Shown here: positions 14,466-22,247 of the stretch, piece after piece
Numbering within the stretch: the first letter of the stretch is position 1
How the letters are laid out: every line of letters begins with the position of its first letter
NCBI RefSeq assembly: GCF_037975445.1
Contig: NZ_CP150254.1
Coordinates: 1,238,001 to 1,302,000, forward strand
DNA length: 64,000 nt
Direction: 5' to 3'
From: Peribacillus sp. FSL P2-0133
GTDB taxonomy: Bacteria; Bacillota; Bacilli; Bacillales; DSM-1321
Notes under the pieces: model-generated
Told to the model about the DNA's origin: nothing
The model's database searches: none
The model's input: the letters and a program-made list of their open reading frames with translations, nothing else
Translations under genes and position numbers: made by a program

Positions 14466-14592
14466 CTATTGAATTTGCCCATACTGGAATAACTAGGTAC
14501 CAAATGCGATTAAAATAATAATATATGGGAAAGTATGTTCTGGGCGTGTTAAAATTAAATGTGAAATGTTGAAAGAAATCGAGGTGATAACT

Positions 14593-15804
14593 TTGAGCGG
14601 TGTGAAGTTCATTCATGCGGCGGATCTCCATTTGGATAGTCCCTTTTCAGGGTTGAAGGATATGCCGTTATCTATATTAAAGGAATTAAGGGACAGTCCG
14701 TTTAAAGCTTTTAAAACTATCATTAATGAAGCAATTTCCCATCAGGTTGACTTTATCGTGTTATCGGGGGATCTATTTGATGGGGAAAATCGGAGTCTCC
14801 GGACACAGGTCCGCTTTCGAGCTGAAATGGAAAAACTCCAGCAGCATCAGATTCCTGCTTATATCATTCATGGTAACCATGATCATCTCAGCGGCTCATG
14901 GATTACTGTGGAGCTGCCGAATAATGTCCACGTATTTTCAGGGAAAACCGAAGTGAAACGGTTTGAAAAAATCGATGGGACGACTGTCCACCTTTATGGA
15001 TTCAGTTATCCACGCCGTCACGTAAGGGAGAGAATGATTGAAACCTACATAAAAGCTGAAGGGGCCGATTATCATATAGGTCTGCTTCATGGGAATTTGG
15101 AAGGCAATTCCGAACATAGCCCATACGCCCCTTTTTCATTGAAGGAACTAGCTGCTAAAGATTTCGATTACTGGGCATTAGGCCATATTCATAAACATCA
15201 GGTTGTATCAGAAGATCCGCTAGTGATATACCCAGGAAATATTCAAGGCAGGAACAGAAAGGAGTCCGGCATTAAAGGGTGCTTGCTTGTCGAATTCGAT
15301 GGGGACGTGAAGCGTCATTCTTTTATTGAAACCTCTGAGGTGATATGGGAAAGCGAAACAATTGGAATATCCGCGGAAGGTGGTTTTGATGCCCTGTTCA
15401 AGCAATGCAAGGAAGTAATTGAACAGAAGGGTTTCGATGGGAGAAGCTTTCTTTTGGAATTGAAGCTGGATGCTGGTGACGCAGCAGGCCCTTCCGGGGA
15501 TTATCTTGAAGAATTGACCCGGATCTTGCAGGAAGAGGACCAAGGGGAACCATTTATCTGGGTGTATAAAATCAAAGTCATCCAGTCCATGCCGATGATT
15601 AGGTCAAATGAAAGAATATCGCCCTTTATGGCTGAGGTATCGATGCTTGCATCTGAATTTGATGATACGGATGCTGCTCTGGCCCCGCTTTATATTCATC
15701 CGGGTGCAAGAAGGTTTCTTGATTCAATAGAGCCGGAAGAGAAGAGGGAACTTTTGGATGAAGCGGAAAGATGGCTTTTGCAAGTTTTTGAAGCGAATAA
15801 ATGA
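14593..15804 (+). CDS. yhaO: DNA repair exonuclease YhaO (Mre11/SbcD-like)
   Basis: The 403-residue calcineurin-like phosphoesterase carries all the metal motifs: HAADLHLDSPF (D-x-H), LSGDLFDG (GD), HGNHDHLSG (GNH[DE]), then LLHGN and WALGHIHKH (GHxH). Mre11/SbcD proteins pair with Rad50/SbcC ATPases and trim DNA ends. I chose TTG 14593 because GAGGTGAT lies 4 bp upstream and the protein then begins directly with the metallophosphatase strand; ATG 14566 lacks a site. It lies 21 bp before yhaN, as in B. subtilis, so the two form one complex and one operon. Confidence 0.85.
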   Translation: MSGVKFIHAADLHLDSPFSGLKDMPLSILKELRDSPFKAFKTIINEAISHQVDFIVLSGDLFDGENRSLRTQVRFRAEMEKLQQHQIPAYIIHGNHDHLSGSWITVELPNNVHVFSGKTEVKRFEKIDGTTVHLYGFSYPRRHVRERMIETYIKAEGADYHIGLLHGNLEGNSEHSPYAPFSLKELAAKDFDYWALGHIHKHQVVSEDPLVIYPGNIQGRNRKESGIKGCLLVEFDGDVKRHSFIETSEVIWESETIGISAEGGFDALFKQCKEVIEQKGFDGRSFLLELKLDAGDAAGPSGDYLEELTRILQEEDQGEPFIWVYKIKVIQSMPMIRSNERISPFMAEVSMLASEFDDTDAALAPLYIHPGARRFLDSIEPEEKRELLDEAERWLLQVFEANK

Positions 15805-15825: not shown

Positions 15826-18800
15826 TTGATTATTAAAGACCTCCATGTTTATGGATACGGCAAACTGGAAAATCAGCGTTTTCCTGAATTGGGACAGCTG
15901 CAGGTTTTCTTTGGGGAAAATGAATCGGGCAAGTCAACCATCATGTCCTTCATTCATAGTATGCTGTTTGGTTTTCCGACAAAGGTTCAAAACGAACCGC
16001 GTTATGAGCCCAAAATGCATGCCAAATATGGGGGAAGGCTCAGTATCATAACAAAAAATGACGGGGAAATCGTCATTGAGCGTGTGAAGGGAAAGGCTAC
16101 TGGTGATGTAAAATTGACCTTCGAGGATGGAAGGGTCGGCGGCGAGGAAGAATTGAATGAGATTCTCCATGGCGTTGATAAAAACTATTACCAAGCCATT
16201 TTTTCTTTCGACCTTCAGGGCCTGCAGGGATTACATACACTAAGTGAAGGGACCATGAGTAAATATCTGCTTTCAGCTGGTCTGATTGGGAATGATAAAC
16301 TTCTTGAAGCCGAAACGAAATTGCAAAAGGAGCTCGATTTAAGGTTCAAGCCATCTGGCCAAAAACCTTTACTGAATGTGAGATTGAAAGAACTTAAGGA
16401 ATTGCAGAAAAAGGTGAAAGCATCTGAAGAAGAACAGCAGTCATATACGGCATTGCTTCAGGAAGAAGCAAAACTTAAGGAGGAGCTCTCTAAAGTCACG
16501 ATAGATATTCAGGAGATTGAAGAAAACCTCGTTAACGTGAGCACTTTTTTGCGGATTAAACCCTTGGTTGAAGAACAGCGGGAACTTGAAACAGAAATAA
16601 GTGAAATTCCGGATGTAAGTTTTCCTGTTGATGGCTTAAAAAGACTTGAACAGCTTCAGGCAGTTGGAATGCCCATGAAAGCCCAACTTGCGGCATTGAC
16701 TGAGAAAATGGACAAACTTGAGGTAAAACTCACGGAAATCGAAATCAATCCGTTCATCAAGGAGCATAAAGAGCAGATTGAACATGCGATAGATCAAGGA
16801 ACATTGCTGGAGAAGCTCGAGCTGGATATAAGAAAAGCGGAACACGAAAGGCTGTTGGAAGAAAAGAATATTGAAAAGGTGAAGCAGGAATTATTCTTGG
16901 ATGTTTCTGATGATGAAATAAGAAAACTGGATATCAGTACATTCATGAAGGAAAAGGTGAAAAGGGCCGAGAGGGAAAAGCATCAACTCCAAAATGATAA
17001 AAAACAGCTTGATGAGAAATATGGACTGCAAAAGGATAGTCTGGAAACTACAGAATCCCGATTGAAGGAGATAAAGACCCAGTTACTTCCAGATAAAAAA
17101 AGAATCGAGCTGGAGACCTTATACAACAAGCAGAATAACATCGAATTTGAAGCGGCACAATCCCTTATTCTTGATGAACAAATACTTGAGCTTGAAAAGC
17201 AATTGGCTTTACAGAGGAAGAAGGAAGCGCATAATCGTAAACGTTCACTTATCATGAATGGCAGTTTAATAGTACTTCTTTGTTTAGGTGCGATTGGAAG
17301 TTATTTCAGTGAACAGATTTTGTTGGGGATTATACTTCTATCCATGGCTGTTCTGTTTGTAGTTTCCAGGCATCTCTTTAAAGGTGATCATATATTGTCC
17401 GGATATATCAGGCAATTGGATGAGATGAAAAGGAAAAGGGCTGCAATTGGCAGTGAAACCAATCGAGTGAGTGAAGGAGAGTCGATGGGTCGGTTGCTTG
17501 AAATGGACCAACGTCTTCAAAGGCGGTTTGAAAGTGAAATGTTTAAATATGAAGAAAGGGAGGAAGCGTTTGAATCGACCATTCAGGAATATGCTACTTG
17601 GGAAGCTAGCAGGGACCGATTGGATAAAGAAGTGAGGAGCATCTTAAGCGGTTGGGGTCTGTCTTATCCCGGAATGGAAATCAATCTTGAATCTGTATTT
17701 GAACTTCTTGAGAAATGGAAGGAAGCCGTAGATAGGAAATATGAAGCAATCAAGATGCACAATTTTCTGCATGCAGAATTTGAGGGTAAATCGAAGGCTT
17801 TATTTCATTTTGCACACAGCCTTGATTTTGAACCATCCACATGGCGGGAAGCGATTGGTCTATTGAAACGGGAAATGAATAAAGCGGTTGAATACTCCGT
17901 TCAACTAATACAATGGATGCAGGAACGGAGTCATTTGACGAACGAAATCGAGCAGTTGACGATGGAAAAAGGCTATCTTGATGCAGAAATGGAAATGCTT
18001 TTTAAGTTAGCGAAGGTTAAGGACGAGGAAGAGTTCAGGCAAGACGCTGCATTGTCAGAAAAGAAAATTGCTTTACAAAAACAGCTTGATTTGATCACCA
18101 TTCAAATTGGGCAATCCAGAATGCTGCCTGAACAAATCCAAACTTACCTAAAACAGGGGATCAACACGTATACATTTGAAAATTTAGAACGGAAACGTAA
18201 GGATTCTGTAAAGGTGAAATCACTTTTATTAGAGAAACAGGCGGATACGAAGCATAAGATAAAACAGCTTGAAGTGTCAGGGATTTATGATGACTTACTT
18301 CATCGTTTTTATGAAGAAAAAGCTGCTTTTAACGAAGAGGCGAAGGAATGGGCGAAATTGGCAATAGCCAAAAGCTTATTGAATAAAACCTTGGATCGAT
18401 ATAAAAGGGAACGCCTACCGAAGGTCATCGCTGATGCAGAGCGGCATTTTTCCTTTTTAACGAATGGAAGCTATAATAAAATCATCCTTGATCAGTCGGG
18501 AGAAGGCATTTGGGTACAGCGCAGTGATGGTTTGAGTTTCAGGGTTGAAGAGGTCAGCCGCGGGACAGCAGAGCAAATTTATGTTTCCCTAAGGCTCGCA
18601 CTTGCTGATCATACTTTTGAAAATGATTCATTCCCTCTCATCATTGATGATAGTTTCGTCAATTTTGATGCGGAAAGGACAAAACGGATGCTCAAGTTAT
18701 TGGAAATGGTTTCGGAAAAACGGCAAATTTTATTTTTTACTTGTCACCGATATATAATGGAGTACTTTAGCGAAAACCAAGTGATTCGTCTATCCAGCCC

Positions 18801-18855
18801 CGTATTGCGCCAGGATATGAATGATTTGATCATCCCGAAATATAATGGGTTATAA
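15826..18855 (+). CDS. yhaN: YhaN, Rad50/SbcC-like ATPase partner of YhaO
   Basis: This is a 1009-residue SMC-like protein. Walker A is FGENESGKST (residues about 28-37), a long coiled coil spans roughly 170-900, and Walker B is PLIIDDSFVNFD near 945, preceded by an ABC-signature-like EVSRGTAEQIYVSLRLA. Unlike Rad50 there is a hydrophobic pair (ILLGIILLSMAVLFVVS and the SLIMNGSLIVLLCLGAI stretch, about 470-525) in the middle of the coil, as in B. subtilis YhaN, where membrane association would be possible. No zinc hook CxxC was seen. Start TTG with GGGAGGAGGAA. Confidence 0.85.
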   Translation: MIIKDLHVYGYGKLENQRFPELGQLQVFFGENESGKSTIMSFIHSMLFGFPTKVQNEPRYEPKMHAKYGGRLSIITKNDGEIVIERVKGKATGDVKLTFEDGRVGGEEELNEILHGVDKNYYQAIFSFDLQGLQGLHTLSEGTMSKYLLSAGLIGNDKLLEAETKLQKELDLRFKPSGQKPLLNVRLKELKELQKKVKASEEEQQSYTALLQEEAKLKEELSKVTIDIQEIEENLVNVSTFLRIKPLVEEQRELETEISEIPDVSFPVDGLKRLEQLQAVGMPMKAQLAALTEKMDKLEVKLTEIEINPFIKEHKEQIEHAIDQGTLLEKLELDIRKAEHERLLEEKNIEKVKQELFLDVSDDEIRKLDISTFMKEKVKRAEREKHQLQNDKKQLDEKYGLQKDSLETTESRLKEIKTQLLPDKKRIELETLYNKQNNIEFEAAQSLILDEQILELEKQLALQRKKEAHNRKRSLIMNGSLIVLLCLGAIGSYFSEQILLGIILLSMAVLFVVSRHLFKGDHILSGYIRQLDEMKRKRAAIGSETNRVSEGESMGRLLEMDQRLQRRFESEMFKYEEREEAFESTIQEYATWEASRDRLDKEVRSILSGWGLSYPGMEINLESVFELLEKWKEAVDRKYEAIKMHNFLHAEFEGKSKALFHFAHSLDFEPSTWREAIGLLKREMNKAVEYSVQLIQWMQERSHLTNEIEQLTMEKGYLDAEMEMLFKLAKVKDEEEFRQDAALSEKKIALQKQLDLITIQIGQSRMLPEQIQTYLKQGINTYTFENLERKRKDSVKVKSLLLEKQADTKHKIKQLEVSGIYDDLLHRFYEEKAAFNEEAKEWAKLAIAKSLLNKTLDRYKRERLPKVIADAERHFSFLTNGSYNKIILDQSGEGIWVQRSDGLSFRVEEVSRGTAEQIYVSLRLALADHTFENDSFPLIIDDSFVNFDAERTKRMLKLLEMVSEKRQILFFTCHRYIMEYFSENQVIRLSSPVLRQDMNDLIIPKYNGL

Positions 18856-18880
18856 ACTATAAATAAAGAGAGTGAAGTCA

Positions 18881-19294
18881 TTGAAAATGAATGAGTTTGT
18901 AAGCCACCATGATTCTTCTTTGGAGCTAATAATCGAAAAGGAGTTTCCTGGTGAACGATGTGTTGGGGGAAAATATTCTGCCAAAGGACATAGCATCACT
19001 TTATATGAGAGAGATATCGAAATTCAGTGTGAACGCTCCCAAGGATCGCTTGCAAGGCTTGAGGAATATTCATGGGTGATCCTCACACATGAATTGGGCC
19101 ACGCATTGGATCCCGACCTTGCTGTGCTTAGTGAGGAGCTATACAATACAGGAAAATCAGAAATCCTTTATCAAATAGAGGTCAATGCATGGAATATTGC
19201 AGAAGGATTAATTCCTTTCATCTTTCAGGATTTATTTACCTTCATTAGGGATGAATCCCTGGAACATTGTACAAATCGCCTGATGGTCGGTTAA
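18881..19294 (+). CDS. Small HExxH putative metallopeptidase, linked to yhaON
   Basis: This protein of about 137 residues contains WVILTHELGHALDPDL, a zincin H-E-x-x-H motif followed by aspartate, and a later EVNAWNIAEGLIPF segment that may supply the third ligand glutamate. No signal peptide or membrane segment was seen, so it should be cytoplasmic. It lies 25 bp after yhaN with no terminator between, so it is part of the yhaON transcript. The start is uncertain: GTG 18872, TTG 18881 or ATG 18887; TTG best fits the GAGAGTGA site. Family not recognised; resembles small ImmA/IrrE- or M78-like zincins only in the motif. Confidence 0.65.
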   Translation: MKMNEFVSHHDSSLELIIEKEFPGERCVGGKYSAKGHSITLYERDIEIQCERSQGSLARLEEYSWVILTHELGHALDPDLAVLSEELYNTGKSEILYQIEVNAWNIAEGLIPFIFQDLFTFIRDESLEHCTNRLMVG

Positions 19295-19324
19295 AAGGCT
19301 CTCCATATGGAGGGCTTTTTTATT
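19293..19324 (+). terminator. Terminator of the yhaO-yhaN-zincin operon
   Basis: AAAGGCTCTCC pairs with GGAGGGCTTTT around ATAT, and further T residues follow. Confidence 0.75.
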
Positions 19325-19614: not shown

Positions 19615-20439
19615 ATGCGACCAGCTATTAACACACAGTCTTTATCGCTCGGTTATGGTGATAAATTAATTATAAATGATATGAATATAGAAATACCCAA
19701 AGGGGAGATCACCGTATTCATCGGTGCTAATGGATGTGGAAAATCAACACTGCTAAGGTCGGTTGCACGATTGTTAAAACCTCAATCCGGCTCAGTTTTG
19801 CTCGAAGGCAAAGCGATTTCGACCATGTCATCGAAGGATGTAGCAAGAAAGATGGCGATTCTCCCACAATCCCCGGTTGCTCCTGAAGGACTTACAGTCT
19901 ATCAACTTGTTAAACAAGGAAGATATCCTTATCAAAGTTGGTTGAAACAGTGGAGTTCCGTGGATGAAGAAAAAGTTCAAAAGGCAATTGAAGCGACGAA
20001 CCTGACCGATTTAAAGGATCAGGCAGTCGATGAATTATCGGGAGGCCAGAAGCAACGGGCATGGATAGCAATGACGCTGGCTCAGGATACGGACGTCATA
20101 TTATTGGATGAACCGACTACATATCTTGATATGACCCATCAAATCGAGATTTTGGACTTATTGTTCGACTTGAATGAGTTTGAGAACCGAACGATCGTGA
20201 TGGTGCTTCATGATTTGAATTTAGCTTGCCGTTATGCGGATAATCTGGTGGCACTTAAAGATGGGGCGATACATGCTCAAGGCCGGCCAGAGGATATCAT
20301 CACGCCTGAATTGGTACAGCATGTATTCAGCATGGAATGTCAAATTTCTTTTGATCCAATTTTCGGCAGTCCCATGTGTGTCCCGTTTGGTAAAGGCCGC
20401 TACGCCCAAAGTCAGGTAAAAGCGCTGGCCAATGCATAA
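19615..20439 (+). CDS. yusV: Siderophore ABC transporter ATP-binding protein (YusV type)
   Basis: The 274-residue ATPase shows Walker A GANGCGKST (about 37-45), Q-loop PQSPVAPEGLT, signature LSGGQKQR (about 142) and Walker B LLDEPTTYLD. It closely resembles YusV, which serves as the shared ATPase for several iron-siderophore permeases in B. subtilis. No permease or binding protein lies here, in line with a stand-alone shared ATPase. It overlaps the next gene by 8 bp. AAAGGGGAG precedes the ATG. The Fur box upstream supports an iron role. The genomic position, between yhaN and yhaM, differs from B. subtilis. Confidence 0.8.
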   Translation: MRPAINTQSLSLGYGDKLIINDMNIEIPKGEITVFIGANGCGKSTLLRSVARLLKPQSGSVLLEGKAISTMSSKDVARKMAILPQSPVAPEGLTVYQLVKQGRYPYQSWLKQWSSVDEEKVQKAIEATNLTDLKDQAVDELSGGQKQRAWIAMTLAQDTDVILLDEPTTYLDMTHQIEILDLLFDLNEFENRTIVMVLHDLNLACRYADNLVALKDGAIHAQGRPEDIITPELVQHVFSMECQISFDPIFGSPMCVPFGKGRYAQSQVKALANA

Positions 20440-21130
20440 CTTAACACCAGCTATTGAAAAAGAGCTGCAGGGATATCGCATTTCCTTTCGAGATGAAGCC
20501 AAAGTTTCCAAGACCTTCAATCATGCTGATGAGCTTATTCAGTATGCACAAGCCCGGACTGGAGCTGAAACGTCAAGGATAGCAATTTCAATGTGGTTCA
20601 GACGCTATGCTTTTTTTGTCACGGCACAATTTTACATGTTCAGCAAACATCGGCTTATTTGGGAAGGCACACTTCAGGAAATTGGCGTTTTGGATGATCC
20701 AGAAGATAAACATTGGCTCCCGAATTTTTTACTAAAAACTAACAGGTGGAGCAATGTCACGGAAAAGGAAAGCGCATCTGCCCTACATTCCATATTAAGC
20801 AGTTTTGGTTCTGATGCCATGAGCTTCTTTTCCGGAACTGCTAAAATATCTAAACTAGTGCTCTGGGAAAATATTTGGAGTTATACGGTATGGATGTATA
20901 GTGAGTTATTGAAGCAGGCAGATATAAAGACGCGAGTTGAAAAGGACATTGAAATGCTGCTTGAAGATGAAGTATGGCTGAATATTGAAACGCGTTCGCC
21001 TTTTAAACGATTCATTGGGGAAAAAAGTGTTCCGGCGTCCATGAATCCTTATAAGCGGGTGACATGCTGTTTATATTACCGAATTGAGGGTCAGGAAAAA
21101 TGCGCGTATTGTCCGAACAATAACTGTTGA
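20432..21130 (+). CDS. FhuF-like ferric siderophore reductase (2Fe-2S)
   Basis: The 232-residue protein ends in RVTCCLYYRIEGQEKCAYCP: C-C-x10-C-x2-C, the [2Fe-2S] ligand pattern of the FhuF family, which reduces ferric siderophores in the cytoplasm to release iron. The N-terminal part resembles the IucA/IucC-FhuF middle region (SMWFRRYAFFVTAQFYMFSK). It overlaps the ATPase gene by 8 bp, so the two are translationally coupled and under the same Fur control. The pairing of an orphan siderophore ATPase and a reductase makes a compact uptake-and-release module. A last cysteine at the very C-terminus is also present. Confidence 0.75.
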   Translation: MHNLTPAIEKELQGYRISFRDEAKVSKTFNHADELIQYAQARTGAETSRIAISMWFRRYAFFVTAQFYMFSKHRLIWEGTLQEIGVLDDPEDKHWLPNFLLKTNRWSNVTEKESASALHSILSSFGSDAMSFFSGTAKISKLVLWENIWSYTVWMYSELLKQADIKTRVEKDIEMLLEDEVWLNIETRSPFKRFIGEKSVPASMNPYKRVTCCLYYRIEGQEKCAYCPNNNC

Positions 21131-21178: not shown

Positions 21179-21308
21179 GTGGAGTGATAACAGACGGTCA
21201 GCTTAGGCTTTTTCTTGTCCATTGTCTATCACTTATTAACGAAAACTAAACGCACTAACGAGATTGGTATGTTATAATGTTGATATTTAATTGAACGGAG
21301 GCAGTCGC

Positions 21309-22247
21309 ATGGGAAATGGGATCATACACTACGGAATTGGTGAAGTAGTAGATATATATATGTACATTAAAACGAGTACAAAAGCGGTGGCAAGTAATGG
21401 AAAGCCGTTTTTAACATTGATTTTGTGCGATAAAACCGGGGAGATCGAGGCAAAGCTATGGGATGTTTCCGAGGCTGATGAGAAAACATACAGTGCGGAA
21501 GCTACGGTGAAAGTTCAAGGGGAAGTCCAGAATTATCGAGGACGCAGCCAATTGAAAATCCGTAATATCAGAATTACTTCAGATATTGATGGGGTAACGA
21601 AAGCCGATTTAATACAAACGGCCCCTATAAGTCAGGAAGAAATGATGGAAACCATCACTCAATTCATTTTTGAAATGAGGAATCCGAATATCCAAAGGGT
21701 GACTAGGCATCTCATAAAAAAATATCAAAATGAATTCCTGACGTTTCCTGCTGCAACCAAGAACCATCATGAGTATATGTCGGGTCTGGCCTATCACGTT
21801 GTATCGATGCTAGGGCTGGCTAAGGCCATTTCAACACTATATCCTTCCCTCAATAAGGATCTATTGTATGCAGGAGTCATTCTCCATGACCTTGGAAAGG
21901 TACATGAGCTATCTGGACCTGTTTCGACTGTTTATACAGTGGAAGGGAACTTGTTGGGGCATATCACCATCATGGTAAATGAAGTCGGCAAAGCTGCAGA
22001 GGAATTGGGCATTGAAGCGGAAGAAGTCATGATTCTCAAGCACTTGATATTAAGCCACCATGGTAAAGCTGAGTGGGGCAGTCCAAAACCGCCAATGGTT
22101 AGGGAAGCGGAAGTGCTGCATTATATTGATAATATGGATGCCAAGATAAATATGATGGACCGGGCATTAGAAAAAGTGAAACCGGGTGAATTTACGGAAA
22201 GAGTCTTCGCACTCGATAATCGTTCATTCTATAAACCAACATTTTAA
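21309..22247 (+). CDS. yhaM: 3'-5' exoribonuclease YhaM
   Basis: The 312-residue protein has an N-terminal OB fold (about 15-95, with [12 protein letters not shown]) and a C-terminal HD phosphohydrolase domain with H in [17 protein letters not shown] in [10 protein letters not shown] and later HHGKAEWG and [11 protein letters not shown]. YhaM degrades RNA 3'-5' and has roles in mRNA turnover and possibly DNA. B. subtilis YhaM has nearly the same length. ATG 21309 follows GGAGG by 8 bp; the frame's TTG at 21291 precedes the site. A T-tract hairpin ends it. In B. subtilis yhaM follows yhaN directly; here the iron module lies between. Confidence 0.9.

Follow-up and report, generated by a model that had tools for sequence, protein, structure and literature searches.

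Downstream of the yhaO-yhaN pair, the window (the whole 64,000-nt stretch of Peribacillus sp. FSL P2-0133 DNA that was analysed) encodes a small protein that is probably a cytoplasmic Glu-zincin of an unnamed family, linked to stress, making a cut of the IrrE/ImmA kind independently of YhaO and YhaN, and relocated behind yhaN in Peribacillus. This reading corrects the tempting inference, drawn from the operon, that the zincin is a general partner of Mre11/Rad50-like proteins. It also defines a single-copy zincin family across Bacillaceae and Paenibacillaceae, with a clear sequence signature and a candidate general-stress promoter. If the proposal is true, the substrate of the enzyme could reveal a stress-regulatory cleavage similar to that of the IrrE-DdrO system outside Deinococcus.

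The zincin gene is a 137-aa open reading frame on the forward strand (positions 18881–19294, stop codon ending at 19294). Its start codon is likely TTG at 18881; the ribosome-binding site AAAGAGAGTG (18865–18874) is conserved in Peribacillus orthologues, and the block from this site to the start codon is kept in orthologues from relatives. An intrinsic terminator with a 12-bp stem and a T run (19293–19320, -15.6 kcal/mol) lies directly 3' of the gene. Upstream on the same strand are yhaO (14566–15804), which encodes an Mre11/SbcD-like phosphoesterase (Metallophos, 8.2e-16) and whose true start may be TTG at 14593, and yhaN (15826–18855), which encodes an SbcE-like, Rad50/SMC-like ATPase of 1009 aa (AAA_27, 2.5e-22). 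The order proposed in the sequence-only reading, with an HExxH gene downstream of yhaO-yhaN, is thereby confirmed by the open reading frame, the HELGH motif and both domain matches. Only 25 nt separate the yhaN stop codon (18853–18855) from the zincin start, and co-transcription of the two genes, predicted from spacing only, is plausible. Further downstream, also on the forward strand, yhaM (21306–22247) encodes a 3'-5' exoribonuclease (NF010007, 559.7 bits, over the cut-off). Between the zincin gene and yhaM lie two iron genes named by eye, one fecE-like and one fhuF-like (19615–21130), an arrangement seen in the same clade; in sister species yhaM follows directly, or only fhuF intervenes.

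Of the 61 relatives, 32 carry an orthologue of the zincin gene, and tblastn confirmed 129 stretches in GTDB contigs. The family profile matches 90 of the 397 genomes of the order, a minority of these being weak matches to a second family (the HEIGYY paralogue discussed below); within the class, members also occur in Paenibacillus-type genomes, and there are hardly any outside it. Copies from Peribacillus show dN/dS values of about 0.17–0.25 at dS of 0.35–0.85, as expected for a sequence under purifying selection. Because of the orthologues, the tblastn-confirmed stretches and these substitution ratios, the open reading frame can be regarded as a real gene and not a product of chance. The family normally consists of single-copy genes that usually stand alone in the Bacillaceae and Paenibacillaceae. 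No Pfam, NCBIfam or PADLOC family matched the window's protein at the cut-off (PADLOC therefore assigns it to no defence family), and none of the 25 Pfam families listed for the 62 aligned members clearly claims them; the family thus appears to be unnamed in these three libraries. A search of PDB sequences returned chance matches only. An origin of the gene from phages or other mobile elements was considered and rejected, as no match was found in phages, plasmids or viral contigs.

Alignment of the 62 members reveals the signature GGKY...QC...HExGHxxD...IExNAW, with R26, G29, G30, K31, Q49, C50, H70, E71, G73, H74, D77, L80, E100, A103, W104 and S126 invariant. In the window, GGKY (residues 29–32) is encoded at 18965–18976, HELGH (residues 70–74) at 19088–19102 and IEVNAW (residues 99–104) at 19175–19192, all on the forward strand. 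The residues of the putative zinc site, H70, E71, H74 and E100, are invariant in sequences with identity down to 32–40%. His70 and His74 would be zinc ligands, Glu71 the catalytic general base and Glu100 the third ligand. The AlphaFold2 model (pLDDT 92, pTM 0.87) comprises a small three-stranded sheet, a helix bearing HExxH (residues 60–76) and a separate second helix (residues 93–110) that bears the invariant E100 and A103. The earlier description of a small cytoplasmic zincin-like protein is supported; inspection by eye showed no signal peptide or membrane segment.

In the VIA-align comparison the best match was IrrE/PprI (3dte; Z 8.2, 94 residues, 3.5 A), of borderline significance, as a Z of about 8 can reflect merely a common arrangement; ArdC came second (Z 8.0), and the lower ranks held further zincins and zinc hydrolases, among them BepA, YbeY, BlaR1 and the minigluzincins. 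Foldseek reported nothing at E<0.001 (best PDB E-value 0.04). The fold of the model is best described as Glu-zincin-like and nearest to IrrE, at borderline significance. IrrE/PprI and ImmA (MEROPS M78, PF06114) share with our protein the character of a small cytoplasmic zincin and the HExxH motif, and by eye the downstream Glu in an E-x-x-A helix, the putative third ligand, is similarly spaced. With IrrE first in the structural ranking, the comparison with ImmA/IrrE made from the sequence alone was apt, and the protein may work like these enzymes.

M78 peptidases cleave a repressor of the XRE family, which is usually encoded adjacent to them. One reading takes our protein for a true M78 peptidase whose substrate is an XRE-type repressor; IrrE at the head of the structural list and the putative third-ligand helix (E-x-x-A-x-x-x-A, with M78-like spacing by eye) lend it some weight. 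We nevertheless consider it unlikely. PF06114 did not match the window's protein at E<=10 and is absent from the 25 families listed for the 62 members, and no XRE or other repressor gene is found among the recurrent immediate neighbour families of the zincin loci. An hhalign comparison with local M78 proteins gave a weak match, with a probability of 70.8 over only 34 columns around HExxH. The protein cannot be filed as M78, from which it also differs in having neither a GAF nor an HTH domain and in possessing a signature of its own.

The minigluzincins (abylysin and selecase, MEROPS M95) are likewise minimal Glu-zincins of about 110–140 aa and provided the top Foldseek matches, albeit below significance (E-values 0.04–0.13), but they show no significant sequence match to the zincin protein. 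Zincin_1 (PF06262, the mini-Asp-zincins TTHA0227 and Acel_2062) resembles it in small size, and its HMM matches the HExxH region weakly (best E-value among members 2.5e-4; 14.3 bits for the window's protein vs a cut-off of 22.4). However, the motif HExxHxxGxxD of that family is absent, and our protein has HExxHxxDxxL (HELGHALDPDL), with invariant D77 and L80 in place of G and D. The likeness to SPRTN-type repair proteases, also put forward in the sequence-only reading, extends to the HExxH zincin fold class and to a structural match with the DPC-repair protease entry 6mdx (Z 6.3). Membership in that class was not borne out: no SprT-like Pfam family matched the window's protein at E<=10 or occurs among the 25 families listed for the 62 members, and, in contrast to SPRTN/SprT, the protein has no DNA-binding part and its gene no linkage to DNA-repair genes outside Peribacillus.

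The best functional lead comes from the upstream regions of the stand-alone genes. In Bacillaceae (L071–L110) these show a GTTTAA-N13/14-GGGTAA motif followed about 35 nt downstream by a TATAAT box. Of the 25 stand-alone Bacillaceae loci, 15 have the motif between -126 and -142, whereas 300 shuffles gave 0.35 on average and never more than 3. This count should be read with the facts that the motif had been spotted ahead of the test and that roughly ten of these 15 loci have a single Mesobacillus-type neighbourhood in common. Loci with different neighbours (L071, L075, L092, L097 and L110) also bear the motif. In sequence it comes close to the sigma-B binding motif given in the literature (PMC9847131), and, given this match and its fixed place, the general stress regulon is the best functional lead for the family. 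It suggests that the stand-alone members are general-stress genes under candidate sigma-B control, which in much of the Bacillaceae would be read from a sigma-B-type and a sigma-A-type promoter. No convincing sigma-B site was found upstream of the window's zincin gene or of yhaO, and control has therefore probably changed in the Peribacillus lineage. Sporulation promoters of the SigE, SigK or SigG type were also considered, as CATA-type boxes were seen by eye upstream of L042–L045; this pattern failed across loci.

IrrE reportedly becomes active when oxidative stress releases zinc (PMC8072749). We favour an analogous mechanism for the zincin, which under stress would most likely cut a specific cellular protein, perhaps a regulator, as IrrE and ImmA do, with the cut gated by zinc or by stress. 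In this mechanism the zincin would act without YhaO and YhaN.

A different role would follow if the zincin were a dedicated protease partner of YhaO/YhaN, expressed from the same operon and processing, in the course of repair, either the nuclease or a protein bound to DNA, as the sequence-only reading had proposed. The arrangement within the genus speaks for such a role: the gene lies adjacent to and 3' of yhaN in 26 of 36 Peribacillus genomes, which are all 26 with this subclade of the family, and in the P. simplex/frigoritolerans group the two are 17–28 nt apart with no terminator between them. Moreover, in Bacillus the yhaONM genes form a repair cluster induced by DNA damage, listed among SOS genes and peroxide-induced in B. 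pumilus (PMC3896406). Upstream of the window's yhaO, however, there is no LexA-type box within one mismatch. The distribution of the gene also argues against a partnership. How often the gene follows yhaN had been named as a check on the claim, and unrelated places in most genomes as evidence against it. In fact yhaO/yhaN lie beside the gene in only 17 of 80 fetched GTDB loci, all from the Peribacillus clade, which takes in Bacillus massiliglaciei and allies as well as Peribacillus; at the other 63 loci the gene occupies unrelated places with varied neighbours, and one of these loci (L090) has just a weak YhaO/SbcD-like match about 5.5 kb away. Outside the genus, no YhaN match was obtained for 24 of the 65 genomes that carry the gene, and species with yhaN and without the zincin gene are common. 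Strong terminators also part yhaN from the zincin gene in L042 and L043, which represent early-branching linked species. We thus regard the zincin gene, which is mostly found elsewhere and often without YhaN, as a lineage-specific neighbour and not a built-in partner of the nuclease; a dedicated partnership is very improbable. The yhaON operon may nevertheless have co-opted the gene secondarily, in Peribacillus alone.

In the gene tree the linked copies cluster with copies of Priestia and B. badius type that are sited elsewhere. The simplest history would be a single relocation behind yhaN that was later tightened. The gene would first have been a separate unit behind a terminator following yhaN, and would later have come to within 17–28 nt of yhaN in the P. 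simplex/frigoritolerans clade, which includes the window and where expression by read-through is likely. The yhaO-yhaN core with yhaM nearby is common to the window and to the YhaO/YhaN(SbcE)/YhaM cluster of B. subtilis, whereas the zincin gene behind yhaN is found solely in the Peribacillus lineage and the fecE-like and fhuF-like genes between yhaN and yhaM are a further difference of the window. In other Peribacillus genomes yhaN is followed directly by yhaM. One genome (G026) carries an insertion-sequence-like transposase fragment behind yhaN, at the position of the zincin gene (L191, 1051–1395, minus strand of the oriented locus). Outside Peribacillus no neighbour is conserved across genera. 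By eye, the Paenibacillus member adjoins a bacterial nitric oxide synthase gene in many genomes (L054–L109), while Mesobacillus members have a PatB-like lyase as neighbour, those around the B. badius group MntR, and those of Alkalihalobacillus NadE and SigK.

A second, related family of 138 aa is also encoded in genomes of the genus; it retains the IExNAW helix, but HEIGYY or YRMIGYY stands where the zincin has HExxH. The second His of the motif is lost, and in the copy from the window's own genome (L141, outside the window) the first His and the Glu are lost as well. A profile comparison links this family to the zincin (97%, E-value 3e-11), and it looks like a paralogue without a zinc site and a likely pseudoenzyme. 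A further reading is that the zincin itself is a non-peptidase or decaying scaffold whose activity is not needed. In addition to the paralogue, the loss or frameshift of the gene in some relatives (G005/L056, L019, G026) would fit such a view, but the zinc-site residues are invariant in the 62 sequences and dN/dS is about 0.2, and we give this explanation very little credence. An active zincin remains the preferred reading, of a gene that seems to be dispensable, given the frameshift in G005 (L026/L056) and the out-of-frame start region in G007 (L019/L040). A broader scheme, which we find quite improbable, would combine a new family of stress-induced, IrrE-like regulatory metalloproteases of Bacillales, each cutting a regulator, with a pseudoenzyme counterpart (HEIGYY or degenerate) and have them wired into the yhaO-yhaN repair operon of Peribacillus. 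The 138-aa relatives are found at G000:C1:1386029-1386442 and L141:6030-6443, and also in L142–L146.
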